DNA from: Pontibacter indicus
Lineage (GTDB): Bacteria; Bacteroidota; Bacteroidia; Cytophagales; Hymenobacteraceae
Direction: 5' to 3'
Assembly: GCF_900156345.1 (NCBI RefSeq)
Contig: NZ_FTPP01000005.1
Coordinates: 1-64,000, forward strand
DNA length: 64,000 bases
Shown one piece after another: positions 1 to 64,000 of the stretch. A program made the translations under genes and the position numbers. Positions within the stretch are counted from its first letter, which is position 1; every line of letters starts with the position of its first letter. The notes beneath the pieces were generated by a model that saw nothing but the letters and a program-made list of their open reading frames with translations, ran no database searches and was not told the DNA's origin.

Positions 1-533
1 CAAGCCCCGGGCAAAAGTTTTTTTCAGCAATCTTTCTCGGTGTGTTCTCTTTCGATCCCTTTCCCGATGGCCGCCCTGCCGGCTGGCCGCTTTCCCCATC
101 CCCTTTAGCGGGTTGGGAGTGCAAAGGTCCACAAAATTTTCGAATGCGCAAGCACCCTGTGTTACCTGTGGCCCGCGATCCAGCCAGGTTCCGCCTAACT
201 GCCTCTACAGCACGGCGAATAGTTTTCAAAAATCTTTAGAGTTTTTAGTTGCTCTTAACAATACAGGCCTTTATTACCTGCATTGTTAAGAGTCTGTTTG
301 TTTTCAAAGCTTTTCTCTGCTTTAAAAATTAGGCTTTGTAATGCTCAACTTTCATAAGGAGACTGCTTTTAAAATCCATGGAGCCCCTCCTATGAAATGC
401 GCTACAGTTTCCCTTGCGCTAGAGTGTAACAGTTTGTTGGCTTCGTATAGTTCCAAGATTTTTTATTTTTTTGCTTTCACTTTTTACTTATAGTTATATG
501 TTATTCCTATTGGTACAACTACACATTTATAAA
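1..533. other. Gene-free stretch with leftward promoter and hairpin
   Basis: I find no convincing gene here. A 65-codon frame at 42-239 has no recognisable family and lies opposite a promoter and its transcribed leader, so I reject it. Positions 252-292 hold a hairpin: an 11-bp perfect arm CTCTTAACAAT/ATTGTTAAGAG, one mismatch, then CAGG/CCTG around a 9-base loop. It may be the terminator of an upstream unit or a structured RNA. Positions 300-530 are AT-rich with nothing recognisable. Confidence 0.6.
122..151 (-). promoter_or_regulatory. Leftward Bacteroidota promoter, rRNA-operon-like
   Basis: On the minus strand, TTG (149-151) is followed after 19 bp by GACCTTTG (122-129), a one-base variant of the TAnnTTTG -7 element, and then by CACTCCC. 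The transcript would run leftward through 1-115, which reads as a GC-rich leader ending in an A-rich stretch. From memory, this arrangement (ACCTTTGCACTCCC followed by a GC-rich leader) is typical of rRNA operon promoters in Cytophagales. The RNA gene itself would lie outside the window, so that part is inference. Confidence 0.5.
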
Positions 534-572
534 AGCAGCAGGGCCCTTTCTTCTGGAAAGGGCCCTGCTGCT
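534..572 (-). terminator. Rho-independent terminator after the DUF2480 gene
   Basis: A perfect 17-bp stem (AGCAGCAGGGCCCTTTC and its complement) closes on a 5-base loop. It starts 20 bp past the stop codon of the leftward DUF2480 gene. On the minus strand it is followed by a short TTTTAT run. Confidence 0.8.
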
Positions 573-592
573 TAAATTCTGTAATTACCAGC

Positions 593-1105
593 TTATGCTA
601 CTTTGGGTCTCTTATATAAAGGGACGGTACTACATGGCTCTCCGTACATCAAGCTACTTACCACTGGCAAAAGCTTTCGCATGATTTCCACATAAGCGTA
701 AGTCGGCACAGGTATACTGCCGCATCCTTTGATGACAACTTTGCCGTCTCGGTATTCTTCCGGATCTATTTTGGCAATTGCCTCTTGCATCAAAGCCTGC
801 TCCAGTGCTTCCAGATCCCCAAACACATAATAGTTCGCGTGCGCCTGCAATTTTGTAGCTAGCAACATATAGGCCCAGGTGGGTACAATAGCATCTACTG
901 AGCAGATGATGGCAACGTTCTTTCCGGCGTACATCGACCAGTCGTGGTCTTTTACAAAGGCTCTGAAATCCTTTTCTCGCAGAATCAGGCCTTGGAACAG
1001 ATTTTCCTTTATATCATATACGACACGCTCACCTGGATGAAGCAACTCCTCTAGGTTCAGGGTCACGAGTGCACTTTGCGCAACTTTGTTTATTATTTCT
1101 GACAT
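593..1105 (-). CDS. DUF2480 family protein
   Basis: This 170-residue protein has no signal peptide or membrane segment and matches my memory of the DUF2480 family, small cytoplasmic proteins found almost only in Bacteroidota. Its function is not known. Recognisable stretches are the central VDAIVPTWAYMLLATKL segment and the Cys/Gly-rich GCGSIPVPTYAYVEI segment near residue 128. It starts 9 bp after tsaB ends, so the two are probably co-transcribed, and it is followed by a strong terminator. The family assignment is from recall of the sequence pattern, not a search. Confidence 0.8.
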   Translation of the reverse strand: MSEIINKVAQSALVTLNLEELLHPGERVVYDIKENLFQGLILREKDFRAFVKDHDWSMYAGKNVAIICSVDAIVPTWAYMLLATKLQAHANYYVFGDLEALEQALMQEAIAKIDPEEYRDGKVVIKGCGSIPVPTYAYVEIMRKLLPVVSSLMYGEPCSTVPLYKRPKVA

Positions 1106-1114
1106 GGCTATCGC

Positions 1115-1813
1115 TTATTTAATATTGTTCTTAGTAGGGCTCGTTATATAAACATCCTTTAGGTAGAAGGGTTCATAATAGGCTACATCTTCAAATGCCT
1201 GCTCCTCATACTTCACTATGGCTAGCTCACCGATTGGTTTGGCTGATGGCTGAATGCTATCGATGAACAGTGCATTCGCATTGCCTTCCATCAATCTCTT
1301 GAACTTGGCGGCGCCGTTGCCAAAGAAAATGATCGGCTGGCGTGCTAACTCTTCCTGAAAACTTTGCTCATCCAAGACCACTGGCATGATAGGCATGCGC
1401 TCTTCTAGTTTTGAATTTACCAGACAGGTATAGACTTCCATGCGGCGGGCATCCAGCATCGGGCAGAACAGGTAGTCCTGGGCATTCGGTATAGCGTCTA
1501 TCGCCTGCTTCGCCAATCCATATAAAGTTGACACTTCCAATAGCGGAATATCAAGCGAATAGCAAAGCCCTTTGGCGGTGGAGCTCCCGATGCGCAAACC
1601 GGTATAAGAGCCCGGCCCCCCTGAAACAGCCACGGCGCTCAGGTCATGCAAGGTACAGCCGCAGTTCTCGACTAGCTGCGCAATCATGACCGTGATGTGG
1701 GACGAATGTGACTTCTCGATCTGCAACTCAGACGCCGCCAACAATTCTGCTCCTTTATATAAGGCAACAGAACAAACGGTAGACGAGGTTTCGAGTGCGA
1801 GCAATAGCGGCAT
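1115..1813 (-). CDS. tsaB: tRNA threonylcarbamoyladenosine biosynthesis protein TsaB
   Basis: TsaB is a non-catalytic partner of TsaD in making threonylcarbamoyladenosine (t6A) at position 37 of ANN-decoding tRNAs in the cytoplasm. The 232-residue product has the ASKHA-fold start LALETSSTVCSVALY (residues 5-19) and the hallmark GGPGSYTGLRIG (65-76), and its length is normal. It is the first gene of a leftward pair with the DUF2480 gene. A terminator at 1871-1902 separates it from the S41 protease gene upstream. TsaD and TsaE are not in this window. Confidence 0.93.
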   Translation of the reverse strand: MPLLLALETSSTVCSVALYKGAELLAASELQIEKSHSSHITVMIAQLVENCGCTLHDLSAVAVSGGPGSYTGLRIGSSTAKGLCYSLDIPLLEVSTLYGLAKQAIDAIPNAQDYLFCPMLDARRMEVYTCLVNSKLEERMPIMPVVLDEQSFQEELARQPIIFFGNGAAKFKRLMEGNANALFIDSIQPSAKPIGELAIVKYEEQAFEDVAYYEPFYLKDVYITSPTKNNIK

Positions 1814-1870
1814 AATTGAACTTGTGTTGAATGATATGACAAAAGTACGTCTGAAAGAGCAGGAAACAAA

Positions 1871-1902
1871 AAAGGGTGATACCTGACTGGCATCACCCCT
1901 TT
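1871..1902 (-). terminator. Terminator after the S41 protease gene
   Basis: An imperfect stem AAAGGGTGAT/ATCACCCCTTT with one bulged base encloses an 11-base loop. On the minus strand it runs straight into a T-rich tract (CCCTTTTTTG). It sits 18 bp past the protease stop codon. Confidence 0.75.
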
Positions 1903-1919
1903 GCTTATACCTTGTCCGT

Positions 1920-3569
1920 TTATTTCACTTTCAGGTATGAGGCATACTGCTGCTGGTCGCTGAGTACGCGCTTGGCCGTCAGGATATCCGGATCGTCGTC
2001 GAAAGAAGATTCAATGTAGCCTTTCTGTAGGTAATAGCGGGAAGCGATTTCTGCCTCCAGCATTTCCTGTATCTCGGTGCGGAAACGCATCAGGTCGTTG
2101 GATTTATTATGCGATACCTTTTTCTTGATGGCATCCAACTCCAGTTTGATGTCGTCGAGGTGCTTGCCGTCCTTGGCTTGCTCGGTCAGTTCTTCCAGTT
2201 CGCGCTCTACCTTGGTGGTATAGTTCACGTCCTTGTTATCCAGGAAAGCGACAAACTTCTGGTAGTCGGCGTCCGTCAGCTTAAACTCTTTGGCCGAAGG
2301 GATGGTCGGGTTTTCGGCTTTATACTTGTTGGCGTACTCAAAGAAGTAGCCTTTCGCTGCGATCGTTCTGGCAATTTCGGAATAAGCCTTGCGGGTCACT
2401 TCTACATCCGGGCTCACGCCACCACCGTCGTACACAATGCGACCACCGGCTGTTTTGTGGGCCACTTTAAGCGAATCCGGAATTTTACCGGCGCTGCCAT
2501 CTTCGTTGCGGTGCTTGTAGTCGATGGCCTGGATGCTGCGGCCACTCGGGATGTAGTATTTAGCCGTTGTTACTTTCAGTTGTGAATTATATGAAAGCGG
2601 ACGGGTCGCCTGCACCAGGCCTTTACCGAAAGTACGCTCCCCTACCAGCACAGCTCTGTCGTAGTCCTGCATCACACCAGCCACAATTTCGGAGGCAGAA
2701 GCACTGCGCGAGCTGGTCAGGATCACCATCGGAATCTGCTTGTCGAGCGGCTCGTCCAGCGCTTTGTAGGTTTTGTTCCACTCCTTCACCTTGCCCTTGG
2801 TGCTCACAATGTCTCTTCCCTTGTCCACGAACAAATTGGAAATGTTCACCGCCTCGTGCAACAAGCCACCCGGATTGTCTCGCAAGTCGAAGATAATCTT
2901 TTTAGCCCCCTGCTCTTTCAGTTTCTGTACGGCAGTTCGCACTTCCTTAGAGGCATCCACCGTAAAGCCTGACAGCTGGAAGTAGCCGATTTCGTTGTCG
3001 ATCATGCCATAGTAAGGCACATTGTCGACCATGATGTTGGCGCGGGTGAGCTCCACTGTTCTTGGCTTCGACTGGCCGTAGCTCTTCACTTCGAGCTTTA
3101 CGGTAGAGTTGGCCTGCCCCTTGAGCAGTTTGCTTACTTCGGAAGTCGTCTTGCTGGAAACGTTTACCCCATCAATTTTAATGATCTCGTCGCCAATCAC
3201 CAGACCTGCCTTGTGAGCCGGAGAGTTTTCATAGGGCATTTGCACCACAATTTTGTTGTCGCGGCTACCGATGAGCGCGCCAATACCACCGTACTGGCCG
3301 GTCGTCATGGTGCGGAAATCTTCAATATCGTCTTCGGGGATGTAGTTGGTATAGGGGTCGAGCGACTTGAGCATCGCGTCTATACCTGTGCGCACCAGTT
3401 TGGAGGGCGGCACCTCGTCTACATAATAGGTGTTTACTTCTTTGAAAAGCGTGGCAAAAACGTCGAGGTTCTTGGCAATTTCGAAATAACGCTCCGACTC
3501 TGTCTTAAAAGAGAAGAGGGTGAGCGCTAAGCTGCCGGCGAGGATGCCAGCTATTAACTTTTTATACAT
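1920..3569 (-). CDS. S41 family C-terminal processing protease (CtpA/Prc type)
   Basis: This is an exported serine protease that trims or degrades periplasmic proteins from their C-termini. The 549 residues comprise an N-terminal signal/anchor (1-22), a PDZ domain (about 90-165) with the QYGGIGALI binding loop, the S41 catalytic core, and a charged C-terminal tail. The Ser/Lys dyad is visible: Ser291 in SASASE and Lys316 in RTFGKGLVQ, 25 residues apart as in E. coli Prc. It follows rnpA by 29 bp with no terminator between them, so it probably belongs to the rpmH-rnpA transcript. It has its own terminator at 1871-1902. Confidence 0.92.
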   Translation of the reverse strand: MYKKLIAGILAGSLALTLFSFKTESERYFEIAKNLDVFATLFKEVNTYYVDEVPPSKLVRTGIDAMLKSLDPYTNYIPEDDIEDFRTMTTGQYGGIGALIGSRDNKIVVQMPYENSPAHKAGLVIGDEIIKIDGVNVSSKTTSEVSKLLKGQANSTVKLEVKSYGQSKPRTVELTRANIMVDNVPYYGMIDNEIGYFQLSGFTVDASKEVRTAVQKLKEQGAKKIIFDLRDNPGGLLHEAVNISNLFVDKGRDIVSTKGKVKEWNKTYKALDEPLDKQIPMVILTSSRSASASEIVAGVMQDYDRAVLVGERTFGKGLVQATRPLSYNSQLKVTTAKYYIPSGRSIQAIDYKHRNEDGSAGKIPDSLKVAHKTAGGRIVYDGGGVSPDVEVTRKAYSEIARTIAAKGYFFEYANKYKAENPTIPSAKEFKLTDADYQKFVAFLDNKDVNYTTKVERELEELTEQAKDGKHLDDIKLELDAIKKKVSHNKSNDLMRFRTEIQEMLEAEIASRYYLQKGYIESSFDDDPDILTAKRVLSDQQQYASYLKVK

Positions 3570-3598
3570 AGAATTTCAGGTTTAGGGGCGGGGTAAGA

Positions 3599-3991
3599 CT
3601 ATCTAGTCAAACAACGTTCCAAACCGGAAATTAGTTTTTTTTGGATTGTATCAAAGGATTTTTTTTCCTTGCCGATATAAATGATGGCCAGTAGGCGGGG
3701 AGCCTTCCCTTGATGTTGGGTAAGAAAATGCTTGTTAAGACGGTAAGCCTCACGTATCTGGCGCTTCAGGCGGTTGCGGTCGACGGCGCGCTTGAAGTGG
3801 CGCTTCGACACAGAAATAACCAACTGCGTGCTGGCGTCAGTAGACTCGTCAGGCGTATGGTATACGAACCTGAGCGGATACAAATTAAAAGAAGAACCCT
3901 TGCTAAACAGCAGCGAGATAAGCCGCTTACTGCACAAGCGTTCTTCTTTCGAAAATGTATGGGAAATCGGTTGTTCTGCTTGTTCGTTCAT
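3599..3991 (-). CDS. rnpA: Ribonuclease P protein component
   Basis: RnpA is the protein subunit of RNase P, which binds the M1 RNA and assists 5' processing of tRNA precursors. The 130-residue basic protein carries the family signature KRAVDRNRLKRQIREAYR (68-84), including the conserved RNR, after the beta-strand VISVSKRHFKR. The gene lies 54 bp downstream of rpmH in the usual bacterial rpmH-rnpA order. The yidD and yidC genes that often follow are absent; an S41 protease gene takes their place. Confidence 0.95.
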   Translation of the reverse strand: MNEQAEQPISHTFSKEERLCSKRLISLLFSKGSSFNLYPLRFVYHTPDESTDASTQLVISVSKRHFKRAVDRNRLKRQIREAYRLNKHFLTQHQGKAPRLLAIIYIGKEKKSFDTIQKKLISGLERCLTR

Positions 3992-4045
3992 CGCTGGATC
4001 CAGTCAATTGAATGGCTCCGCTACGAGCTAAGCGCAACGCACCAA

Positions 4046-4204
4046 TTAAGCTTTGTGTCTTCTTTCGTCAGAAACAGTCAGTTTCTTTCTGCCTTTAGCT
4101 CTTCTGCTAGCAAGCACTCTTCTACCGTTAGCGGTTTCCATTCTAGATCTGAAACCGTGCTTATTTCTTCTTTTTCTCTGCGAAGGCTGGAATGTTCTTT
4201 TCAT
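4046..4204 (-). CDS. rpmH: 50S ribosomal protein L34 (bL34)
   Basis: Reading the minus strand from the ATG at 4204 gives a 52-residue, Arg/Lys-rich protein that begins [19 protein letters not shown] and ends DERRHKA. This is the bL34 signature (MKRTxQPSxRKRxRxHGFRxRM). The protein sits at the peptide exit side of the large subunit. A good promoter lies 29-59 bp upstream, giving a leader of about 20 nt. It heads the rpmH-rnpA-S41 protease unit. The position next to rnpA is typical of regions near the replication origin, although no dnaA is present here. Confidence 0.97.
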
Positions 4205-4232
4205 CGTCTGCCAATGGTTTTATTATGGCCTG

Positions 4233-4263
4233 CAAAATTAGGGAAGCTTTTCTAAATTCGCAA
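4233..4263 (-). promoter_or_regulatory. rpmH promoter (Bacteroidota consensus)
   Basis: On the minus strand TTG (4261-4263) and TAATTTTG (4233-4240) are separated by 20 bp. This fits the TTTG / 19-21 bp / TAnnTTTG consensus of Bacteroidota sigma-ABfr promoters. Transcription would start near 4226, about 22 nt before the rpmH ATG. Confidence 0.75.
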
Positions 4264-4422
4264 TCCATCCTCCGGAATATTTGAAAAAATATGGCAAAAG
4301 CCGCCGAAATAGGCATAGGAGCCGTTAAATCCTGATATTTACTGCTTAAAGCAATACCTCAAGCCGTGCTAAATGCATGGCCATTGCCTAAGCTATACCT
4401 TAAAAACAGTGCACAGCAACTC

Positions 4423-6147
4423 ATGATCAAGCACCATATCTCCTTCAGCAATCCACTCACGCATTTCCTGGACATCACTCTTACGATAGAAGGGAACAGC
4501 CGACAAACGCTATACCTGCAGCTGCCCGCCTGGAGACCGGGCCGCTACGAACTGCAGCACTTTGCCCAGAAGTTGCGCGGTGTTACGGCCTCGGCAAACG
4601 GAGCGGCTATACCTGTATGCAAAGTGACCAAAGACCGCTGGCTGGTAGAAACGGACGGCGCTGAAAAAGTGGAGATCAGGTATAGCTTTTATGCACGGCA
4701 AATGGATGGCGGCGGCTCGTGGCTGGACGAGGAGCAGCTATACCTGAACGGTATCAACTGCCTGATGGCTGTGGAGGGCCACGAGCACAACCCCCAGCAG
4801 CTACAGCTGGCTATACCAGCCGACTGGCAAATTGCCTGCGGCTTGCCGGAAACAGAACGCTATACCTTGCTGGCCGGGAACTACGACCAACTGGTAGATT
4901 CCCCTTTGATTGCCAGCGCCTCTCTCAAAAAGGAAACCTATAGCGTCGCAGGTATACCTTTCCACATCTGGATACAGGGAGACTGCCGTCCGGACTGGGA
5001 GCGGATCAGGAAAGATTTTGAAGCCTTCACCAAAGAGCAGCTGGAGGTGTTTGGCGACTTCCCGGTGGCTGACTACCATTACCTGAACGAGATCCTACCC
5101 TACCGCACCTACCATGGCGTCGAGCACACCAACTCCACCGTGATCACGCTGGGTCCGGGGGAGCTGCTGATGACGCCGGCGCTGTACAAGGAGTTTCTGG
5201 GCGTGAGTTCGCATGAGCTTTTCCATACCTGGAACGTGAAGCAGATACGCCCGAAGGAAATGCTGCCTTACGATTTTAAAGGGGAGAACTACTTCCGGAC
5301 CGGCTATGTGGCGGAAGGCGTGACCACCTACTACGGCGACTACATGCTGGCCCGGTCGGGTGTGTTTACGGCAGCACAGTATTTTGAGGAGCTCAACACC
5401 ACGCTGCAACGCTACTTTGCCGACCACAGCCGCTACCACATGTCCGTTGCCGACTCCTCATTCGACCTCTGGCTCGACGGCTACAAACCCGGCATACCGG
5501 ATCGCAAGGTATCTATTTACGTCAAAGGCGCCCTTACCGCCCTGCTGCTGGACCTGCAACTTCGTCAGGCCACCGACAACCAAACCAGCCTCGACACCGT
5601 GATGCGCCACCTTTGGGAGGACTTTGGCAAGCGTGGCATCGGCTTTACCGAGCAGGATTACGAGTTGCTGGTGCTGCGATTGGGAGGAGAAAAGTTTGGA
5701 GCTTACTTTAAGCAGTACATCAACGGCACAGCACCGATAGAAGAAGCTCTGGACCAGGCGCTGCGCTATGTAGGCTGCACGCTGCAGGCAGAAGAGACCG
5801 CGCTGCTAAGCGAAAAGCTTTTCGGTTTCAAGACTGTCTCCGACAACAATATCACCAAAGTAACCGCCATCGCCCCGGACTCTTCTGCCAACTCAGCATT
5901 GAGCATCGACGACGAGTTGGTTGCCCTGAATGGCCGCAAGCTGGAACAGAACCTGCAGCCTTTGTTAGCTGATACGGATTTGTCGCAAGGTATAGAACTC
6001 ACCCTTTTCCGGAACAAACAGTTACGCCAGGTAATACTAGAGCCAAGCCAGCATACTTACTACACAAGGTATACCGTGGCCAAACGGAAGGACGCCACCG
6101 AGGCGGAGAAGGAAAACTTCAGGCTGTGGCTGAAACAGGAGTTTTGA
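4423..6147 (+). CDS. M61 family glycyl aminopeptidase-like metalloprotease with PDZ domain
   Basis: The product (574 residues from this ATG) is a zinc peptidase of family M61. It has an N-terminal beta-sandwich domain, a thermolysin-like catalytic domain with the zinc motif HELFH near residue 264 followed by TWNVKQIRP (family hallmark), and a C-terminal PDZ-like domain (about 450-545). No signal peptide is evident. I chose the Met at 4423 because MIKHHISFSNPLTHF matches the family N-terminus; an in-frame ATG at 4366 would add 19 unconvincing residues. It converges on the next gene with no spacer. The AGGTATAG-type motif occurs about ten times within the gene. Confidence 0.9.
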   Translation: MIKHHISFSNPLTHFLDITLTIEGNSRQTLYLQLPAWRPGRYELQHFAQKLRGVTASANGAAIPVCKVTKDRWLVETDGAEKVEIRYSFYARQMDGGGSWLDEEQLYLNGINCLMAVEGHEHNPQQLQLAIPADWQIACGLPETERYTLLAGNYDQLVDSPLIASASLKKETYSVAGIPFHIWIQGDCRPDWERIRKDFEAFTKEQLEVFGDFPVADYHYLNEILPYRTYHGVEHTNSTVITLGPGELLMTPALYKEFLGVSSHELFHTWNVKQIRPKEMLPYDFKGENYFRTGYVAEGVTTYYGDYMLARSGVFTAAQYFEELNTTLQRYFADHSRYHMSVADSSFDLWLDGYKPGIPDRKVSIYVKGALTALLLDLQLRQATDNQTSLDTVMRHLWEDFGKRGIGFTEQDYELLVLRLGGEKFGAYFKQYINGTAPIEEALDQALRYVGCTLQAEETALLSEKLFGFKTVSDNNITKVTAIAPDSSANSALSIDDELVALNGRKLEQNLQPLLADTDLSQGIELTLFRNKQLRQVILEPSQHTYYTRYTVAKRKDATEAEKENFRLWLKQEF

Positions 6148-9597: not shown

Positions 9598-10932
9598 TTA
9601 TCTGTCAAACAAGAGTCGTTCGCCTTTTTTGCTTTCGTCAAACTCCCCGTTAGCAAAGGCCAGGTGACCGGAAACGAAGGTGTGCGTCATGGTGCTGCTG
9701 AAGGTATGGCCCTCGAAAGGTGACCAGTTGCACTGGTAGTAAGTATTGTCTTTGGTAACGGTATAGGGCTTGTTCAGGTCTACCAGCACGAGGTCGGCCC
9801 AGTAGCCTTCGCGGATGTAGCCTCGCTCACGCACGTTGAAGAGGATGGCCGGCGCATGCGCCATTTTCTCCACCACCTTCTCGATCGTCAGCTTGCCCTG
9901 CTTCACAAATTCGAGCATCATCTGCACCGAGTGCTGCACCAGCGGCACACCACTTGGCGCCTGCTTATACTTACCCTGCTTCTCTTCCCAGGTATGCGGC
10001 GCGTGGTCGGTGGCAATTACATCCAGTTTGTCTTCGAGCAAGCCTTGCAGCAGACCTTCTTTGTGGCGGTGCTCCTTCACAGCTGGGTTACACTTAATCT
10101 GGGTGCCAAACTTGTCATAGTCTTCCTTGTCGAACCAAAGGTGATGCACGCAGACCTCAGCGGTGATGCGCTTCTGCTCCAGCGGAATGTCGTTGCGGAA
10201 CAGCTTGAGTTCTTCTTCGGTGGAAATGTGCAGAATGTGCAGGCGGGTGTTGTGCTTCTCGGCCAGCTTCACGGCCAGGAAAGAAGACTTGAAACAGGCT
10301 GCCTCATTACGAATCTCGGGGTGGCACTTCACCGGTATGTCTTCGCCGTACTTCTCTTCATAGATAGCCATGTTGTCGCGGATCGTCTGCTCGTCTTCGC
10401 AGTGCACGGCAATCGGCAGCCTGGCTTTGGCAAAGATCTGTTCCAGCGTCTGCTCATTGTCTACGAGCATGTTCCCCGTGGAAGAGCCCATGAAGATCTT
10501 GATGCCGCAAACGGTGTTGGGGTTGGTGAGCAGCACCTCGGCCAGGTTGTCGTTGGTGGCGCCCATGTAGAAGGAATAATTGGCCAGCGAAGTCCCGGCA
10601 GCGATCTTATACTTATCCTCGAGCAACTCCTGCGTCACGGTGTTGGGCACCGTGTTGGGCATCTCCATAAACGAGGTGGTGCCGCCCGCCACAGCCGCTC
10701 TCGCCTCTGTTTCAATTCTGGCCTTGTGCGTCAGGCCTGGCTCACGGAAGTGCACCTGGTCGTCGATGGCACCCGGGATCAGGTGTAAGCCGGTGGCGTC
10801 GATAATCTGGTCGGCCTCGGCGGCTATACCTTGTCCGATCTGCGCGATGCGCCCCTCTTTTATGAGTACGTCTGCGGTGGTGGTGCTTCCTTCGTTTACA
10901 AGCTGTGCGTTCTTTATCAGGATAGATTTCAT
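9598..10932 (-). CDS. pyrC: Dihydroorotase
   Basis: Dihydroorotase closes carbamoyl-aspartate to dihydroorotate, the third step of pyrimidine synthesis, using zinc in an amidohydrolase barrel. The 444-residue product starts MKSILIKNAQLVNEG and has IDDQVHFREPGLTHK (56-70), GTTSFMEMPNT, HCEDEQT, LHILHIST and ATDHAPHTWEEK. The usual HxH of the first metal motif reads Q59-V60-H61. From memory this Gln is shared by the Bacteroidota clade of long dihydroorotases, so it is probably a clade trait rather than a defect. An upstream ATG at 10965 would add 11 residues and is less likely. Confidence 0.92.
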   Translation of the reverse strand: MKSILIKNAQLVNEGSTTTADVLIKEGRIAQIGQGIAAEADQIIDATGLHLIPGAIDDQVHFREPGLTHKARIETEARAAVAGGTTSFMEMPNTVPNTVTQELLEDKYKIAAGTSLANYSFYMGATNDNLAEVLLTNPNTVCGIKIFMGSSTGNMLVDNEQTLEQIFAKARLPIAVHCEDEQTIRDNMAIYEEKYGEDIPVKCHPEIRNEAACFKSSFLAVKLAEKHNTRLHILHISTEEELKLFRNDIPLEQKRITAEVCVHHLWFDKEDYDKFGTQIKCNPAVKEHRHKEGLLQGLLEDKLDVIATDHAPHTWEEKQGKYKQAPSGVPLVQHSVQMMLEFVKQGKLTIEKVVEKMAHAPAILFNVRERGYIREGYWADLVLVDLNKPYTVTKDNTYYQCNWSPFEGHTFSSTMTHTFVSGHLAFANGEFDESKKGERLLFDR

Positions 10933-11035
10933 GCTGCTAAGGTATGTGCTCAACAAAGTTAACACACATTAGCGGAGTTTTACGCATAAATGCGCCGGAC
11001 GGCTATACCTGAAAAAGCAAAAGCTATACCTGCCC

Positions 11036-22264: not shown

Positions 22265-23803
22265 ATGCTTATCAAGACGTTTGGCAGCGCCGTGCAGGGC
22301 GTGAACGCCTATACCGTAACCGTGGAAGTGAGTGTGAGCGCTGGCGCTAAGTACTTCCTGGTGGGCCTACCCGACAATGCCATTAAGGAAGGCGAGCAGC
22401 GCATCGAATCGGCACTGGCGCAATATGGTTACAAGCTCAAACGCCAGAAAACCATCATCAACATGGCCCCAGCCGATATCCGGAAAGAGGGCGCTGCTTA
22501 CGACCTGACCATCGCGATGGGTATGCTAGCTGCTGGCGGGCAGATGAATCCTGATAAGCTTTCGCAGTACATGATCATGGGCGAGTTATCGCTTGATGGT
22601 TCGCTTCGTCCCATTAAGGGTGTACTCCCTATTGCCATTCAGGCCCGCAAAGAGGGGTTTAAAGGCATTATACTGCCCGCCAGCAATGCCCGCGAAGCAG
22701 CTATCGTGAATAACCTGGATGTGATCGGGGTAGAGAATATCAAGGAGGCCATTGACTTCTTGAATGATGAACTGGACATACCACCCGTTAAAATAGAAAC
22801 CCGCGAGGTTTTCCAGAACACAGCGAACCAGTATGCGGCCGATTTCTCGGATGTGCAGGGGCAGGAGAACATCAAACGGGCTTTGGAAATCGCTGCTGCC
22901 GGTGGTCACAACGTGATCATGATCGGTCCTCCGGGAGCGGGAAAGACTATGCTGGCCAAGCGATTGCCTTCTATCCTGCCTCCGCTCTCGATGCACGAAG
23001 CGCTGGAAACAACCAAAATACATTCGGTGGCTGGCAAATTGGGAGAGGTGTCGTCTTTGCTTTCTACGCGGCCCTACCGGTCGCCACATCATACCATTTC
23101 GGATGTGGCGTTGGTAGGCGGAGGTGGTATACCGCAGCCCGGAGAGATTTCGCTTGCGCATAATGGGGTGTTGTTTTTAGATGAACTGCCAGAGTTTAAG
23201 CGTACCGCCTTGGAGGTGATGCGCCAGCCGCTGGAAGAGCGACGCGTGACCATTTCCAGAGCCAAAACAACCCTGGATTTTCCGGCCAACTTTATGCTCA
23301 TTGCCAGCATGAATCCGTGCCCCTGTGGCTTCTATAATCACCCCGAGAAAGAATGTGTCTGTGCTCCCGGCCTTGTGCAGCGTTACCTCAACAAAGTAAG
23401 CGGCCCTTTGCTCGACCGCATTGATCTGCACGTGGAAGTAACGCCTGTTACCTTCGATGAAATGACAGCCACCCGTAAGTCGGAGGACAGTGGGACCATA
23501 CGCGAGCGGGTAGTAAGAGCGCGCGAGTTACAGCGGGAGCGATTCAGCACCGTAGACTCCATTCATTCCAATGCTATGATGCCTTCCCAAATGGTGAAGG
23601 AGATTTGCCAGATCTCGGATGCCGGGCGCACTTTGCTGAAGACCGCGATGGAGCGGCTCGGACTCTCGGCCCGCGCATACGATCGCATCCTGAAGGTGAG
23701 CCGCACCATCGCTGACCTGGCCGGAAGCGACGAAATTAAAATTGAACATTTAGCAGAAGCTATCCAGTACCGAAGCTTGGACAGAGACGGTTGGGCAGGT
23801 TAA
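22265..23803 (+). CDS. comM: YifB/ComM family Mg-chelatase-like AAA ATPase
   Basis: In transformable bacteria ComM is a hexameric helicase that widens recombination intermediates during integration of taken-up DNA. The 512-residue protein has an N-terminal Lon-like S5 domain (about 15-140), Walker A GPPGAGKTMLAKRLPS (about 221), Walker B GVLFLDELPEFKR, and a Cys cluster PCPCGFYNHPEKECVC before the C-terminal lid domain (LSARAYDRILKVSRTIADL). It stands alone after the repeat cluster. In organisms not known to transform the role is unclear. Confidence 0.92.
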   Translation: MLIKTFGSAVQGVNAYTVTVEVSVSAGAKYFLVGLPDNAIKEGEQRIESALAQYGYKLKRQKTIINMAPADIRKEGAAYDLTIAMGMLAAGGQMNPDKLSQYMIMGELSLDGSLRPIKGVLPIAIQARKEGFKGIILPASNAREAAIVNNLDVIGVENIKEAIDFLNDELDIPPVKIETREVFQNTANQYAADFSDVQGQENIKRALEIAAAGGHNVIMIGPPGAGKTMLAKRLPSILPPLSMHEALETTKIHSVAGKLGEVSSLLSTRPYRSPHHTISDVALVGGGGIPQPGEISLAHNGVLFLDELPEFKRTALEVMRQPLEERRVTISRAKTTLDFPANFMLIASMNPCPCGFYNHPEKECVCAPGLVQRYLNKVSGPLLDRIDLHVEVTPVTFDEMTATRKSEDSGTIRERVVRARELQRERFSTVDSIHSNAMMPSQMVKEICQISDAGRTLLKTAMERLGLSARAYDRILKVSRTIADLAGSDEIKIEHLAEAIQYRSLDRDGWAG

Positions 23804-26470: not shown

Positions 26471-26507
26471 GCCGACGGCTATACCTTGATCGCTATACCT
26501 TAAAAAT

Positions 26508-26546
26508 GCAAAGCCCCGCTACTTACATGAAGCAGCGGGGCTTTGC
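26508..26546. terminator. Bidirectional terminator between convergent genes
   Basis: A perfect 13-bp stem GCAAAGCCCCGCT/AGCGGGGCTTTGC with a 13-base loop is flanked by TAAAAAT on the left. It serves the beta-barrel gene (+) and the dipeptidase gene (-). Confidence 0.8.
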
Positions 26547-26563
26547 TATACCTGAGCTTTGGT

Positions 26564-27925
26564 TTATTTGCTCATCTCGGCATAGTACTTATAGAACTGC
26601 GGGATCGTCTCTATACCTTTCATGAAGTTGAAGACACCGAAGTGTTCGTTAGGCGAGTGGATCGCATCCGTATCCAAACCGAAGCCCATCAGCACCGAAT
26701 CCAAACCGAGCTCTGACTTGAACATGGCCACGATTGGAATAGACCCACCGCTGCGCACTGGCACCGGCTTCACGCCAAAGGTTTCTTCGTAGGCTTTGGC
26801 AGCCGCCTGGTAAGCGATAGAGTTAGTCGGCGTTACCACCGGCTCACCACCGTGGTGCGGCTTCACGACCACTTTCACACTCTTCGGCGCAATGCTCTCA
26901 AAGTGCTTCTTGAACTTTTCCGTAATCTCCTCAGACGTCTGGTTCGGCACCAGACGCATCGATATTTTAGCGAACGCCTGCGAAGGGATCACCGTCTTAG
27001 CTCCTTCACCGGTATAGCCACCCCAGATGCCGTTCACATCCAGCGTCGGGCGGATGGAGTTGCGCTCCATGGTCACGTAGCCTTCCTCACCGTGCACATC
27101 CGGCAGGTCGAGGGCCTGCTTATACTTGTCCAAGCTGAAAGGGGCACGGGCCATCTCGGCGCGCTCCTCCTGGCTCAGCTCCTGCACATTGTCGTAGAAG
27201 CCAGGTATGGTGATGTGGTTGTTTTCGTCGTGCATGGCAGCGATCATCTGGCACAGGATGTTGATCGGGTTCGCCACAGCGCCACCGTACAGACCGGAGT
27301 GCAGATCGCGGTTCGGGCCGGTTACCTCTACCTCCACGTAGCTCATACCGCGCAGGCCGGTGGTGATAGAAGGCGTGTCATTACCCAGCATACCGGTGTC
27401 GGAGATCAGAATCACATCGGCCTTCAGTTTCTCCTTGTTGTTCTTCACGAAAGTGGCCAGGTTGGCAGATCCCACTTCCTCTTCACCCTCGATCATGAAC
27501 TTCACGTTGCAAGTCAAGGCGTTGTTCTGCATCATCACCTCAAAGGCCTTCACGTGCATGTACATCTGGCCTTTGTCGTCGCAGGCACCGCGGGCGTATA
27601 TCTTGCCGTCTTTGATCACGGGCTCGAACGGAGGTGAGTGCCACAGTTCATAAGGGTCGGCAGGCTGCACATCGTAGTGCCCGTATACCAGCACTGTGGG
27701 CAGGCTTGGGTCTACCATCTTCTCGCCATACACGATCGGGTAGCCGCCCGTCTCGCACAACTCCACATTGTCAGCTCCGGCCTCGCGCAGTTTCTGGGCC
27801 ACAAACTCTGCCGTGCGCAGCACATCCTGCTTAAACTTCGGGTCGGCGCTTACAGAAGGTATGCGCAGCATGTCCAGCAGCTCGTTTATAAATCGGTCTT
27901 TGTTGTCAGCAATATATTGGTTCAT
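26564..27925 (-). CDS. M20 family dipeptidase
   Basis: This di-zinc exopeptidase of 453 residues belongs to the M20/CNDP-like dipeptidases. Metal ligands and active-site residues are visible in VYGHYDVQPADP, GACDDKGQMYMHV, IEGEEEVGS, ISDTGML and DAIHSPNEHFG. The dimerisation domain begins near TTGLRGMSYVEVEVTGPNRDLHSG. There is no signal peptide, so it probably acts in the cytoplasm on dipeptides. It is a single-gene unit. Confidence 0.9.
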   Translation of the reverse strand: MNQYIADNKDRFINELLDMLRIPSVSADPKFKQDVLRTAEFVAQKLREAGADNVELCETGGYPIVYGEKMVDPSLPTVLVYGHYDVQPADPYELWHSPPFEPVIKDGKIYARGACDDKGQMYMHVKAFEVMMQNNALTCNVKFMIEGEEEVGSANLATFVKNNKEKLKADVILISDTGMLGNDTPSITTGLRGMSYVEVEVTGPNRDLHSGLYGGAVANPINILCQMIAAMHDENNHITIPGFYDNVQELSQEERAEMARAPFSLDKYKQALDLPDVHGEEGYVTMERNSIRPTLDVNGIWGGYTGEGAKTVIPSQAFAKISMRLVPNQTSEEITEKFKKHFESIAPKSVKVVVKPHHGGEPVVTPTNSIAYQAAAKAYEETFGVKPVPVRSGGSIPIVAMFKSELGLDSVLMGFGLDTDAIHSPNEHFGVFNFMKGIETIPQFYKYYAEMSK

Positions 27926-44371: not shown

Positions 44372-44669
44372 GTTTCTTTATTCTGAATTTTTGGTTATTC
44401 TGGTTTCTGCAAAGCTTAAGCCTTGAGGTTCGTTCTGCTATACCTGCTTAATCAAAGGCTATGCCAAACAGTATTATGCAATTCTAAATCACTGTTAACA
44501 AACTGAATTACAGCAATATACAATCAGTCATCGACACAGGTATCTTTTGAATTTTGCTATACCTAAACTACTGCTATACCTTGCGTGCTGCCTCTGAGCC
44601 AGTAAATTAATTGCATCAATCTAAAGTCGGATTCCTATATTTAGCCATTCATCACTATACCTCAAGCTT

Positions 44670-58690: not shown

Positions 58691-58888
58691 TTTGAGGCCT
58701 GTGGTAGCATAGTAGCCCTCTGCGACTTACGCACGCGCGTCTACTCCCTCTCCACATGTACCTACGCCGGCATGCCTAAATTACCTGTGTATGCCGCTCA
58801 TCGATCACATGCTTCTCCTGTATATAACAACAGCATCAGCTATGCGAGGCGGTATACCTGTATCTCAGCAAAATCAACCTCATACATC

Positions 58889-59290: not shown

Positions 59291-59432
59291 TACAAGGCGA
59301 TACCTGCTTCCCGACAATTTGCGTTTAAGGTTTTGTTTGCGCCAGTTCCACGAGAAACAATTTTATCCTATATTCGGCTTGTCTATACCTGACACACTTC
59401 ATTCGACTCAATAAAAATCTAATACCTATACC

Positions 59433-60890
59433 TTGAAAACACGTTCATTTTTGCCGCTTCTATTGTTGCTGGTGCTTTTGTCTGCCACAACTGCCGCCGC
59501 CCAAGGCCGAAAAGCCGCTATACCTTTCACTTATCTCCCTGACAACAACGAAGACCAGTACAACCAAAGCATCACGAGCAAGACGCTGCCCTTGGGAGCC
59601 GATGGGTTTGTGATCCTCAGCCGAAACAAACCTGGCGAGTATGCCATAGAGCGCTACAATGCCGCTCTCAAGAAAGCCTGGTCAACAGCTATACCACTGG
59701 CTGCAGAAGAAACGCTGGAGGCTTTTACCCGGAATGAGGAGGCGGCGCTGGTGGTTACGCATCGCCACGATGAAAAGGGCAACCAGGTGCTCTATGCACA
59801 CCGGGTTAATTTGCAGAACGGCCAGAAAGACAAGCCGGTGCTGTTGCTCGAAGCCCCCGCTGATATTCGCAAAGCAGGTGTAGCCTTATCGCCGGACGGT
59901 ACCAAACTCCTGGCCTACCGCTTCCACGTTGGAGGCAGCCAGGTGGTGCAAGGTATAAGCGGCAGCCTGTATGATGGCAAACTGCAGAAACTAAAGGACA
60001 CCAAGTACAACCTGAGCGACCTGCGCGGCATTGTGTCGGCCGAAGTGATTGTGAACGATGCCGGCGACCAGTTCATCAGCCTGATTTCCGAAAACATGGA
60101 GCGCCTGACCGTGCGCCAGTATACGCTCAAGTCGCCGGAGGCCAAGGGAATGTCGGTGCTGGTAGGCGGCATGTTCGACGGCAAGAAGGTATATATCATG
60201 GACAGCAAATACGCCCTGCAGCCCAATGGCAACCTGTATGGCGTAGTGCTCACCGCCGATGAGAAAACGGGCGATTACTACAGTCTGAAAGCCGTGAAGT
60301 TCGACTTCGAAAACGAGGACATGGTATTTGCCGAGGAATTCCGGTTCACGCCCGAGTACCTGGCCAGTGTCAACAAACTGGACAAGAGCGGTGCAAAAGC
60401 CAGTCGCCTGGAAGACATTTACCTGACCGACCTGATCCTGACACCGGAAGAAAAGCTGATCGTACTGGCTGAGAAAAAATATATGGAGGGTGGTGAGAAC
60501 TCGCCTTACTATGCCAAGGAGATGCACCTGTTTGCCTACGATCAGTTTATGGGCACAGCTTGGAGCTCTGTGCTGATGAAGAGTCAGAAAGCACCTGCTG
60601 ACGAAGCTTTTACAGGTATATCCTACCGCTATCACCTGTCGGGCAACACGCTAAACCTGCTTACGCTCGAAGAACTGGACGGCAAACACGATCTATACCT
60701 GCGCCGCATCGACACCAACACAGGCAAGGCTGAGGCTCCAAAGGCAGCCGGCCTGAATGTGGCTGACGATAAGGATATCTCCTATGTGAAGGATTTCACG
60801 GCCTGGCTCACAGACCGCGACCTGGTAACGGTGGTGCGCCCATCCAAAAAAGCAAACAGCCTGCAGCTGCGCCGCTTGCAGATCAAGTAA
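59433..60890 (+). CDS. Secreted protein of unknown function
   Basis: This 485-residue protein has signal peptide LKTRSFLPLLLLLVLLSATTAAAQ. The likely start is the TTG at 59433, because a complete signal peptide follows at once. The mature chain is made of beta-rich units (GFVILSRNKPGEYAIERYNAAL, VALSPDGTKLLAYRF, EEKLIVLAEKKYMEGGENSPYY), suggestive of a propeller. I recognise no named family. It converges on the GT2 gene with no spacer. Confidence 0.8.
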   Translation: MKTRSFLPLLLLLVLLSATTAAAQGRKAAIPFTYLPDNNEDQYNQSITSKTLPLGADGFVILSRNKPGEYAIERYNAALKKAWSTAIPLAAEETLEAFTRNEEAALVVTHRHDEKGNQVLYAHRVNLQNGQKDKPVLLLEAPADIRKAGVALSPDGTKLLAYRFHVGGSQVVQGISGSLYDGKLQKLKDTKYNLSDLRGIVSAEVIVNDAGDQFISLISENMERLTVRQYTLKSPEAKGMSVLVGGMFDGKKVYIMDSKYALQPNGNLYGVVLTADEKTGDYYSLKAVKFDFENEDMVFAEEFRFTPEYLASVNKLDKSGAKASRLEDIYLTDLILTPEEKLIVLAEKKYMEGGENSPYYAKEMHLFAYDQFMGTAWSSVLMKSQKAPADEAFTGISYRYHLSGNTLNLLTLEELDGKHDLYLRRIDTNTGKAEAPKAAGLNVADDKDISYVKDFTAWLTDRDLVTVVRPSKKANSLQLRRLQIK

Positions 60891-61622
60891 TCAGGACATC
60901 CGTATACCTGACAGAAAGCGCGACCACTCGTTGGTTGCGCTTTTTTGCTTTTTGAGCTTTCGGGTAAAGGAGCTCAGCTGCACCAGCATGTGCACAAAGC
61001 CCACATAGTCCACAATCTCGACATACATTTTGAACTCCCGTCGGGATCCCTCGAGCACCCCGAGCTTGTCGACCTTGTAGGTGTTCATGGCGGACCAGGG
61101 CATCCAGCGTACCCGCTTATGTCGCTTGATCATGTAGCGGTTAATGGCCACCTCCAACTGGTAGCGTGCTACAGGCTGAGAGAGCACTTCCTCCAAGTCG
61201 CTTCGCCGCAGGAGCCGCTCGCCGGATAGTAGAATATCACTGCGGTACCAGCGCACAAACCAGGGAGAGCGGATGCGCCTCAGTATGAGCATGTCGACTT
61301 TTGCAGTGTGCTGAAACGCGGAAATGGCCTTTTCGAGTTCTGCTCCATCGATCTCCTGCAGGTCGGCGTCCATAAGCAGAATTAACTCGTGCTCCACAAA
61401 CTGCAGACCGTACTGGATGGCAGCGGCTTTCCCACGGTTCTGACTCAGGCGGATGACCTGCACAGAGGGCCATTGCCGGCTAACCATGGTAGCCGTATTG
61501 TCTGATGACCCGTCGTCGATGCAAATGACCTGCTGTATACCTTCTACTGTGGTTACCACATCCAGCACTGCTGCAATCCGATCCTGTTCGTTATAGCATG
61601 GAATCAGGCATGTTACACCCAT
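60891..61622 (-). CDS. Glycosyltransferase family 2
   Basis: This 243-residue GT-A enzyme begins MGVTCLIPCYNEQDRIAAVLD and has ICIDDGSSDNTATMV, NRGKAAAIQYGL and the metal-binding DxD as LLMDADLQEID. It transfers a sugar from a nucleotide donor to an unknown acceptor, perhaps a lipid carrier. An ATG at 61664 would add 14 residues (MRKHIRQSIIKPER) and cannot be excluded. Confidence 0.88.
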   Translation of the reverse strand: MGVTCLIPCYNEQDRIAAVLDVVTTVEGIQQVICIDDGSSDNTATMVSRQWPSVQVIRLSQNRGKAAAIQYGLQFVEHELILLMDADLQEIDGAELEKAISAFQHTAKVDMLILRRIRSPWFVRWYRSDILLSGERLLRRSDLEEVLSQPVARYQLEVAINRYMIKRHKRVRWMPWSAMNTYKVDKLGVLEGSRREFKMYVEIVDYVGFVHMLVQLSSFTRKLKKQKSATNEWSRFLSGIRMS

Positions 61623-61705
61623 ACGCTCTGGTTTAATTATACTTTGTCTGATATGTTTACGCACGTTTAATCAATAAGTCGCCTGGTGGTAACCCAATAA
61701 AACAA

Positions 61706-61733
61706 AAAGGCCGCCCCCTACGGAAGCAGCCTT
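61706..61733 (-). terminator. Terminator after the acyl-CoA dehydrogenase gene
   Basis: A stem AAAGGC(C)GC/GC(A)GCCTTT with one mismatch is followed on the minus strand by TTTTGTTTTATT. It lies 25 bp past the dehydrogenase stop codon. Confidence 0.72.
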
Positions 61734-61758
61734 TCCTAAACTATAGATCTGTCAGAAT

Positions 61759-63555
61759 CTAGTACACGAATTCGTTTGCCTCGATCATCGCGGCGGCTAT
61801 GCGGCGGCGTGCCTCTTTGGTGTTGTAGAGGTCTTTTTTGGTGAAGCGCTTCAGGCCCATGAACAACAGGCGCTGCTCGTCGCCTTCCACCATCGAGGCA
61901 ATGGCATCTTTGCCCGCCATGTAAGCCGTATCCACGGCATCGTTCACCGTTACCTGCATGATGTCGATCTGGTTGGCCACAGCCTCCTCGCCTTTCATGC
62001 CCACCAGTTTCTCCACACGAAGCAGCGTCGATTCCGCCACGTAGGTTTTGATGGCCATGTCGGCGATGTTCATCAGGATCTCCTGCTCTTTAGCCAGCGA
62101 GTTCATGTATTTCTGCACCGCCGTACCCGCTACCATTAGGATCGCCTTCTTGAGGTTGCGGATGGCCTTGTGCTCTGCAGCGAACAAACCTTCCTCTTCC
62201 GCACCGAAATCAGGTATAGCCATCAGCTCGCTTTGCACGGCTTGGGCAGGGCCCATCAGGTCGAGTTCGCCGTTCATGGCTTTCTTGAGGATCATGTCCA
62301 CAGTGAGCATACGGTTGATCTCGTTCGTGCCCTCAAAAATGCGGTTGATGCGGGAGTCGCGGTAGGCGCGGTCCATTGGGTAGTCGGCTGAGAAGCCGTA
62401 ACCACCGTAAATCTGCACGCCTTCGTCTACCACGTAGTCGAGCACTTCGGAGCCTTCTACTTTCAGCATGGCGCACTCCACAGCAAACTCGCGGGCAGCA
62501 CCCAGCATGGCCTCATTCTCGCCCTTACCAGCTGCCAGCAACTCCTGCTCCTTGCGGTAGATATCCATACCGCAACGGTATAGCGCCGACTCTACAGCAT
62601 AAATGCGGATGGCTTGCTCGGCCAGTTTGTGGCGGATGGCACCGAATTTAGAGATCGGCAGTTTGAACTGCTGACGCTCGTTGGCATACTTCACCGACAG
62701 GTCGACTACTTTTTTAGAGGCACCCAACGTAGCTGCGCAAAGCTTGATACGGCCAATGTTGAGGATATTGAAGGCGATCAGGTGTCCTTTGCCGATCTCG
62801 CCCAGCACGTTTTCCTTTGGCACTTCGCAGTCGGAGAGGAATACCTGGCGTGTTGAAGAACCTTTGATACCCATTTTGTGCTCCTCGTTGCCTAGGCTCA
62901 AACCTGGGTAGCCTTTTTCTACAATGAAGCCCGTGAACTTGTCGCCATCCACCTGCGCGAACACGATGAACACATCGGCAAAGCCGGCGTTCGTGATCCA
63001 CATTTTCTGGCCGTTGAGGATGTAGTGCGTGCCCGCACCATTCAATACGGCTTTGGTCTTGGCTGCCAGGGCATCGGAACCGGAGCCCGGCTCTGTGAGG
63101 CAGTAGGCAGCCGCCCACTCACCTGAAGTCAGTTTCGGCAGGTACTTCTGTTTCTGCTCCTCCGTACCAAAGTACAGGATCGGCAGCATGCCTATACCTG
63201 TGTGGGCAGCAAAGGCCACCGGAAATGAGTGTCCTCCACCCACTGACTCTGTCACGAGCAGTGAAGTGTTAAAGTCCATGTTCAGGCCACCGTACTGCTC
63301 CGGCATTGATACCGCAAACAGACCAAGTTCACCTGCCTTTTTCATCAGGCCTTCCATCAGCCCTTCTTCGTGGTTGTCGAGGCGGTCGAGCAGCGGGTTC
63401 ACTTCTTCGCGCACAAAGTCCAGACAGGTCTGCGCCATCATGCGCTGCTCCTCACTGAACTCAGCAGGTATAAACACCTCCTGCGGATCGGTTTCTTTGA
63501 TCAGGAATTCACCACCGCGGAGGGTAGCTTTATTTTTATCTGTTACATTTTCCAT
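61759..63555 (-). CDS. Acyl-CoA dehydrogenase
   Basis: This FAD enzyme makes the first double bond of fatty-acid beta-oxidation. The 598-residue protein has AAYCLTEPGSGSDALAAKTKA and KMWITNAGFADVFIVFAQV (FAD/substrate loop), ERQQFKLPISKFGAI, and VQIYGGYGFSADYPMDRAYRDSRINRIFEGTNEINR with the catalytic-region Glu. It has about 200 extra C-terminal residues, typical of the long Bacteroidota/ACAD9-VLCAD type. It lies 38 bp after the thiolase gene in one beta-oxidation unit. Confidence 0.93.
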   Translation of the reverse strand: MENVTDKNKATLRGGEFLIKETDPQEVFIPAEFSEEQRMMAQTCLDFVREEVNPLLDRLDNHEEGLMEGLMKKAGELGLFAVSMPEQYGGLNMDFNTSLLVTESVGGGHSFPVAFAAHTGIGMLPILYFGTEEQKQKYLPKLTSGEWAAAYCLTEPGSGSDALAAKTKAVLNGAGTHYILNGQKMWITNAGFADVFIVFAQVDGDKFTGFIVEKGYPGLSLGNEEHKMGIKGSSTRQVFLSDCEVPKENVLGEIGKGHLIAFNILNIGRIKLCAATLGASKKVVDLSVKYANERQQFKLPISKFGAIRHKLAEQAIRIYAVESALYRCGMDIYRKEQELLAAGKGENEAMLGAAREFAVECAMLKVEGSEVLDYVVDEGVQIYGGYGFSADYPMDRAYRDSRINRIFEGTNEINRMLTVDMILKKAMNGELDLMGPAQAVQSELMAIPDFGAEEEGLFAAEHKAIRNLKKAILMVAGTAVQKYMNSLAKEQEILMNIADMAIKTYVAESTLLRVEKLVGMKGEEAVANQIDIMQVTVNDAVDTAYMAGKDAIASMVEGDEQRLLFMGLKRFTKKDLYNTKEARRRIAAAMIEANEFVY

Positions 63556-63593
63556 GGCAGATTATGATTAGTGTTTTAGGTACAGATTAATTA

Positions 63594-64000
63594 CTACTTC
63601 AGAAGTTCGAATATGCCGGCTACGCCTTGACCGCCGCCCACGCATGCCGTTACGATGCCGTGCTTGCCACCGGTGCGGCGCAGGTCGCTGAAGAGCTGCA
63701 CGCTCAGTTTGGCACCAGAGCATCCCAGCGGGTGACCTAGCGCAATGGCACCTCCGTTGATGTTCAGTTTCGCCGGGTCAAACTCCAGGTGACGCATCAC
63801 GGCAATAGACTGAGCCGCGAAGGCCTCGTTCATCTCGATCAGGTCGATGTCGTTGAGAGTCATACCGGCTTGTTTCAGGGCTTTCGGCACAGCGGCTATT
63901 GGGCCCATCCCCATGATGCGTGGGTCCACACCGCCAGTGCCGTAGCTTACCAGGCGGGCAATCGGCTCCAGGTTCAGCTCTTTTACCATGCGCTCGCTCA
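63594..64000 (-). CDS. Acetyl-CoA acyltransferase (thiolase), C-terminal part
   Basis: The last 135 residues or so of a thiolase; the 5' part lies beyond the window edge. It contains [17 protein letters not shown], the active-site His in [17 protein letters not shown] and the catalytic Cys in [18 protein letters not shown]. It cleaves 3-ketoacyl-CoA (or condenses acetyl-CoA) and is co-directional with the acyl-CoA dehydrogenase, consistent with fatty-acid degradation. Confidence 0.93.

Follow-up and report, generated by a model that had tools for sequence, protein, structure and literature searches.

What is the short DNA word that recurs on both strands throughout the first 64,000 nucleotides of contig NZ_FTPP01000005.1 of Pontibacter indicus, and how has it come to be there? 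We refer to this stretch, at its full length, as the window, and the word in question is the 8-mer AGGTATAG. Reading only the letters of the window, the original prediction had described the motif as iterated across the region in both orientations. We find that the motif is real, strong and genome-wide, that the genus Pontibacter carries several versions of it which follow the genus tree, and that its sites are conserved among relatives. The reading best in keeping with these results is that AGGTATAG probably serves self-recognition in the manner of a DNA uptake sequence (DUS).

A short word throughout the genome

The window holds 81 copies of AGGTATAG (25 forward, 56 reverse), compared with 6.0 expected under an order-3 Markov model whose training sequence was the window, and all of our order-3 expectations are inflated because that sequence contains the motif. 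Counting both strands in the same way, GGTATA occurs 185 times versus 79.9 expected, AGGTATA 135 times versus 25.1, AGGTATAGC 54 times versus 2.1 and CAGGTATAGC 27 times versus 0.8. The reported iteration in both orientations is borne out, as is the impression that AGGTATA is the more strongly enriched. The estimate of about 150 copies of GGTATA, made by eye, was an undercount, and the expectation of about 30 that accompanied it agrees with base composition alone (about 29) but not with the order-3 model. A maximal-order model yields 73.7 expected copies of AGGTATAG in the window and so reproduces the count, however, this agreement is circular because such a model contains the word's own sub-words.

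Across the whole genome (4,566,239 bases, 8 contigs) we counted 2562 + 2566 = 5,128 copies, a density of 1.1 per kb, while the reversed word, used as a control, occurs 38 + 27 = 65 times. A sample of the same genome (49 pieces, 1.005 Mb, window included) contains 1072 copies versus 216 by an order-4 model, so the count is not predicted at that order. Together the reversed-word control and the sample count establish that the enrichment extends beyond the window.

Polar motifs of the KOPS, chi or AIMS type have a strong orientation bias relative to replication. No such orientation was found for AGGTATAG in the genome-wide strand counts or in a comparison of 48 pieces with GC skew. The two strands carry the word equally often, and the 25:56 ratio seen in the window is a local feature. 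Local strand bias correlated weakly with GC skew (rho 0.35, P = 0.014), a comparison from which piece L007 was dropped as no genes were called in it and for which the positions of origin and terminus were not located. A replication-oriented motif, an idea that the original prediction had put forward for checking, is therefore unsupported.

The word is widespread over the sampled chromosome, with 13 of the 200 5-kb segments of the 1.0-Mb sample lacking it. The word-poorest pieces include a conjugative element (the first 20 kb of contig C2, 1 copy) and a polysaccharide locus (3 copies in 20 kb), and no copy lies on contig C1 (5.4 kb). Single-substitution counts in the same sample show how sharply the word is delimited. 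At positions 2 to 5 (GGTA) no variant exceeds 61 copies versus 1072 for the perfect word, while C (401) and A (280) are tolerated at position 8 and G (206) at position 7. C is favoured at both neighbouring bases (48% and 54%), and over the 40 bases examined on each side no position past these carries more than about 0.03 bits. Because the flanks are nearly free of signal, we regard AGGTATAG as a sharp 8-bp word, and a longer repeat element is unsupported. Copies in the same orientation do lie in short-range clusters, some of which are tandem arrays with a 6-bp period (28 pairs spaced 6 bp; 14 period-6 arrays).

The word had been thought to lie in genes and gaps alike. It is present in both, but with genes called by a simple purpose-made caller it is 2.4 times denser outside them (0.82 per kb in coding DNA, 1.98 per kb in other DNA). 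Among intergenic stretches of at least 20 bp, the density is 4.13 per kb between convergent genes, 1.98 per kb between tandem genes and 1.49 per kb between divergent genes. Within genes, where copies are distributed about evenly along the gene length, 258 have the orientation of the gene and 391 the opposite one, with a strong frame preference, and 217 of the 258 same-strand copies read A-GGT-ATA-G. Of 1,395 Gly-Ile pairs, 453 use GGT-ATA, although ATA accounts for 2,355 of 15,569 isoleucine codons (15%), so the word overrides codon preference.

The frame preference and the period-6 arrays are what could be expected if a dispersed repeat element or a codon-usage effect explained the counts. 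Such an account fits poorly with flanks that share almost no signal, with a density that is higher outside genes and with the equal use of the two strands, and the alignments described below bear on it further.

Dialects across Pontibacter and the fate of sites

The dihydroorotase encoded in the window places the genome in Pontibacter, matching P. amylolyticus at 96% and at least four more Pontibacter records at 90% or above among the best 80 matches listed. We surveyed 50 genomes of the genus and 154 genomes from five other genera of the family. One of three words is the main word in 39 of the 50 genus genomes, at about 0.5-1.8 copies per kb, and we call these words dialects: D1 is AGGTATAG (12 genomes), D2 is AAGTATAA (22 genomes) and D3 is AACTATAG (5 genomes). 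The D1 genomes each carry more than 1,300 copies of AGGTATAG per strand and only 130-228 of AAGTATAA, the D2 genomes carry 1,116-3,584 copies of AAGTATAA per strand, and the D3 genomes carry 3,115-4,160 copies of AACTATAG per strand. Three genomes are mixtures: G026 and G032 carry D2 and D3, and G211 is a D3 genome with 1,080 + 1,045 copies of D2. In addition, the D2 genome G217 has 455 + 452 copies of D3. In the 154 genomes of the other five genera no comparable enrichment of D1 or D2 was found, the top D2 count being 349 per strand versus a control of 188 and the top D1 ratio noticed being about 3.4-fold, in a genome that is 83% complete; D3 was searched within the genus only.

None of the three is the main word in the remaining 11 genomes (G002, G007, G023, G024, G025, G027, G033, G036, G210, G214 and G215). 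Several of these have a residual excess of D2 over the reversed word (G007, 614 + 587 versus 138 + 114; G023, 250 + 259 versus 69 + 69), as would be expected of a word once in use. A further dialect, ATATATRR, is likely in G215, where it occurs at 15.8 per 10 kb versus 0-2.3 in 19 other genomes, with 0.62 copies per kb in coding DNA and 3.93 per kb in other DNA (loci L178, L186, L187 and L227; genome about 53% GC). We call this dialect likely rather than shown because the count covers 80 kb only and the core of the word is made of A and T alone. GGGTATGR was considered as a dialect of G036 and dropped, since 21 of its 22 copies lie in coding DNA, unlike those of the other dialects.

All four words, ATATATRR included, match the skeleton A-N-N-TAT-R-R, with D2 and D3 differing by a G-to-C transversion and D2 and D1 by two A-to-G changes. 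In a tree built from seven proteins, not all of them available for every genome, and rooted on G027, the D1 genomes form one clade of 12 (support 1.0) whose sister is D2, and the D3 genomes fall within one clade of seven (support 1.0) along with the two D2 and D3 mixtures. D2 occurs across most of the remainder. The dialects, with their common skeleton, follow the genus tree, and D2 is probably ancestral because it spans most of the tree outside the D1 and D3 clades, as read directly off the tree rather than from a formal reconstruction.

How sites change between species was examined for 35 D1 sites in the first 22 kb of the window, using alignable sites only. Versus 11 D1 relatives, the word is perfect in 135 of 198 coding comparisons (24% for other 8-mers) and in 86 of 140 noncoding comparisons (33% for other 8-mers). 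At the positions of these sites in 20 D2 species the commonest word is AAGTATAA (30 of 287 ungapped, with D1 in 12), and in five D3 species it is AACTATAG (9 of 63, with D1 in 5), while 11 species without a dialect have AAGTATAA in 2 of 118, both in G007, and D1 in 6. The D2 word is thus more frequent in D2 species than in dialect-less ones (Fisher P = 0.002) and the D3 word more frequent in D3 species than in D2 species, where it occurs in 0 of 287 (Fisher P = 1e-7), both P values being optimistic because the comparisons share ancestry. Most D1 sites have turned over between dialects, and a minority have been respelled in place.

In D2 species, 262 of 287 aligned coding sites are ungapped, so that 8.7% are gapped versus a background of 3.8%, with 93 more unaligned. 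Among noncoding sites 39 of 64 aligned ones are gapped versus a background of 18%, and 256 more are unaligned. Therefore substitution dominates in genes, while insertions and deletions matter between genes. The gapped noncoding sites are a further point in favour of a dispersed repeat or a codon-usage effect, but the ungapped coding sites speak against it, and with the flank results the alignments already largely refute this explanation, which we hold to be very improbable.

Switching between words also occurs with cyanobacterial HIP1, another highly repeated 8-bp word, which is replaced in some genomes by alternate HIPs with a matching methyltransferase (PMC4390886). On this model a methyltransferase and a linked, biased mismatch repair would create and protect the word, and the dialect would change with the specificity of the methyltransferase; it would leave the same picture of switched dialects and conserved sites. 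However, HIPs are GC-rich palindromes with methyltransferases, whereas none of AGGTATAG, AAGTATAA and AACTATAG is its own reverse complement, which weakens the comparison. No single mutation bias explains both the G-to-C change from D2 to D3 and the A-to-G changes from D2 to D1, and the model does not predict the link between word density and broken comM described in the next section. We consider a HIP1-like origin unlikely.

Competence genes and the state of comM

All 50 genus genomes have matches to ComEC (broken in G009 and G021), to ComM (TIGR00368; 44 intact, 6 broken) and to the HHH_3 family, with the short HHH protein broken in G021. The comM gene that the original prediction had recognized in the window is indeed there and is intact (Table 1). 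A convincing type IV pilus ATPase was not found with PF00437, which gives short partial matches to its 370-position model and passes the cut-off, just, in 3 of the 50 genus genomes, compared with 13 of the 14 control genomes; the search did not extend to pilins and secretin. On these partial matches we rejected the type IV pilus as the machinery.

Four of the six broken comM genes are interrupted by insertions, which occupy two places, the coding sites of Walker A and of MNPCPCG (L241 in G019; L247 in G011; L248-L249 in G001; L250-L252 in G031). The protein is split at residues ~216-223, in Walker A, in G019, G011 and G031, and at residues ~350-355 in G001 and again in G031. A tyrosine integrase lies near one edge of the elements in G019, G011 and G001, and the parts of G031 examined showed none. 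The cargo includes a type IIG restriction enzyme with Lamassu genes in G019 and a CBASS set (cyclase, E1-E2, JAB, NucC) in G011. The borders show no exact direct repeats of at least 12 bases, and a looser look found imperfect direct repeats of 14-19 bases at 3 of 5 junctions. Defence-bearing elements, CBASS among them, also insert into comM in Acinetobacter baumannii (PMC11472951). In the other two genomes comM has a stop (G021) or a frameshift (G009). The genome of G021 is a single contig, in which comM, comEC and the gene for the short HHH protein are all broken (L242-L244); its D2 density is among the two lowest, and it has likely lost competence.

Five of the six lowest D2 densities among the 22 D2 genomes belong to genomes with broken comM. 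Comparing these 5 with 15 pure-D2 genomes with intact comM, the density is lower in the former (P = 1.3e-4), and remains so when two sister pairs are merged (P = 0.0025). Here the mixtures G026 and G032 were dropped (with both, P = 7.6e-5), the D3 genome G211 with its 2,125 D2 copies was not included, and densities were calculated from rounded genome sizes. We also counted words one substitution away from D2 in 20-60 kb per genome. There are 3.0-3.3 of them per perfect word in G019, G001 and G021 versus 1.0-2.3 in the 15 intact genomes, but as an argument for decay this is weak because the ratio largely reflects the smaller number of perfect words per kb.

Several observations weigh against an uptake system whose word decays when comM breaks. 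One-off words per kb are not raised, at 1.8-2.2 in G019, G001 and G021 versus 1.7-3.1 in intact genomes, and the one-off ratio is within the normal range in G011 (1.7) and G031 (1.9). G009, a D1 genome with frameshifted comM and comEC, still has about 1,100 D1 copies per Mb, so its loss of com genes would have to be recent; nine other genes of the 20-kb region have no frameshift or stop. D2 is also sparse in G034 and G035, whose comM is intact. In the 11 genomes where none of D1-D3 is the main word, comM is intact and comEC gives a match, so the word cannot be predicted from the com genes. The link between ComM and density is no proof of uptake specificity, given that this protein has a general part in recombination. 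Finally, an uptake word would be rare in recently acquired DNA; the conjugative element and the polysaccharide locus of the P. indicus sample have few copies, but the rpoC-fusA-ribosomal protein region (L042, G000:C7:800001-820000) has none in 20 kb either. This region has a GC content of 43% in a genome of about 52% GC; a foreign island was considered on account of the low GC and dropped, as Pfam shows rpoC, EF-G and SecY.

A word that is widespread over the chromosome, denser between genes and conserved at its sites could also be one to which an abundant chromosomal protein, of the nucleoid or of segregation, binds and which direct selection maintains, with dialects that track changes in the protein. 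We think this rather improbable. The word lacks the strong replication orientation of KOPS or chi, the respelling of thousands of sites by selection on each is hard to imagine, and neither the comM link nor the wordless species of the genus would be explained.

Table 1. Positions of the word and of genes referred to in the text, in coordinates of the window.
Feature	Position	Strand	Details
D1 field, AGGTATAG/CTATACCT	1..64000	both	81 copies; fullest form CAGGTATAGC
Example cluster, six copies in 475 bp	4393..4867	both	reverse 4393, 4510, 4607, 4738, 4860; forward 4678
Dihydroorotase gene	9598..10965	-	places the genome in Pontibacter; used to find orthologous genus regions; not part of the system
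comM (YifB-family Mg-chelatase-like AAA ATPase), intact	22265..23803	+	Pfam; TIGR00368
Example cluster, four reverse copies	26479..26618	-	26479, 26493, 26546, 26611
Example cluster, four reverse copies	44438..44662	-	44438, 44557, 44574, 44655

Other dispersed words were seen in the P. indicus sample, among them GGGCCCCTACCC (15 copies), CACTCATTCACT (9 copies) and the palindrome CCCTTCGAAGGG (16 copies, both strands counted). Each is perhaps an intergenic repeat.

A candidate self-recognition system

Of the roles that had been suggested for the motif, an uptake word is now the best supported, although indirectly, by dialects that follow the tree, by sites that are conserved and respelled and by low D2 densities where comM is broken, while the HIP1-like repeat has lost ground as the words are not palindromes. 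We therefore favour, with fair but not high confidence, a DUS-like self-recognition word.

Like the DUS and the uptake signal sequences (USS) in general, AGGTATAG is a short, non-palindromic, over-represented word found on both strands, with lineage dialects that have a common core, in genomes with genes for inner-membrane transport and recombination (judged on ComEC, ComM and HHH_3). With the DUS of the Neisseriaceae it has in common thousands of copies of a short word, dialects consistent with phylogeny and a conserved core (PMC3630211). It differs in being an unrelated word, in belonging to the Bacteroidota and in the lack of a convincing type IV pilus ATPase among the PF00437 matches, and also in that uptake is shown in the Neisseriaceae whereas here the case is made from sequence. 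The USS of the Pasteurellaceae has a clade-specific consensus that originated by mutation rather than copying, with competence-gene defects in some species (PMC1626085), and one of its orientations is commoner in reading frames, with a bias to gene termini (PMC2346458). Pontibacter resembles this in its clade-specific words, in the broken competence genes of some species and in the orientation bias within genes, but its copies are even along genes and the AT-rich flanking repeats of the USS are not seen within the 40 bases on each side. The uptake sequences named in the literature consulted are those of the Neisseriaceae and Pasteurellaceae. The Pontibacter word would work like a DUS or USS, and as far as tested it is not a member of the pilus-based systems.

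The nearest comparison for the machinery is Riemerella, also of the Bacteroidota, where transformation needs ComEC, DprA, ComF and RecA along with four proteins unlike known machinery, and where transformation is reduced more than a hundred-fold in three YifB/ComM-type insertion mutants (PMC8459023). The participants there include ComEC, a YifB/ComM-type ATPase and an HHH protein, and the genes for all three are present in Pontibacter. R. columbina prefers its own DNA, and its candidate words, unlike ours, are A/T-rich k-mers ranked by raw count whose role in uptake was left open by the authors (PMC7965970).

We propose that cells take up word-bearing DNA preferentially by means of a receptor that would be independent of type IV pili. 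ComP is the pilin receptor of Neisseria-type DUS, and a ComP or type IV pilus system as in Neisseria is unlikely here, and ComP not expected, because no convincing PilB/PilT-type ATPase was found. The DNA would be moved inward by the ComEA-like HHH protein and ComEC, whose roles we infer from Riemerella, and would then be recombined with the help of ComM. Fragments with the word would enter and replace wordless alleles, so that the word would build up by substitution and be shielded from loss. Such a molecular drive, perhaps joined by selection, is suggested by the conservation and respelling of sites. A change in receptor specificity would cause the genome to be rewritten to a new dialect, which may account for the three dialects and the three mixed genomes observed, and the loss of comM would be the cause of the lower word density.

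Candidates for the receptor were sought. DUF5689 is a domain of the Riemerella factor RS04920, and a DUF5689 protein occurs in 22 of the 50 genus genomes in two forms, of which the short one (open frames of 413-450 aa) is found in 12, all dialect-bearing and including all five D3 genomes. We rejected this protein as a general receptor, as the short form is missing from most dialect-bearing genomes and as it lies beside SusC and SusD in G000. The DUF5689 protein stands beside SusC/SusD-type genes in L221 (G000; Pfam-checked) and L223 (G030; not Pfam-checked). No obvious receptor was found around comEC or the HHH gene of P. indicus, where the neighbours are amidohydrolases, Omp85, transporters and other enzymes.

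Joined into one account, the proposal is that Pontibacter has a DNA uptake sequence system in which a pilus-independent receptor reads the 8-bp A-N-N-TAT-R-R. The specificity of this receptor would have changed at least twice (D2 to D1, D2 to D3 and perhaps to ATATATRR), dragging whole genomes along; the mixed genomes would be in transition, and integrating elements with defence cargo would break comM, after which the word would decay. We judge the chance that this account holds in all its parts to be slightly better than even.

In the literature searched, with most subscription papers and all bioRxiv preprints outside it, no report of such a system for Pontibacter or Bacteroidetes was found among the papers listed, and to our knowledge it would be the first in Bacteroidota. 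If the proposal is true, the recognition of own DNA during transformation has arisen a further time, in a Bacteroidota system that lacks type IV pili and uses a different receptor. The three clear dialects, the three mixed genomes and the low-density genomes with broken comM make the receptor, the drive and dialect switching directly testable, and the word would also provide a practical rule for transforming these bacteria.

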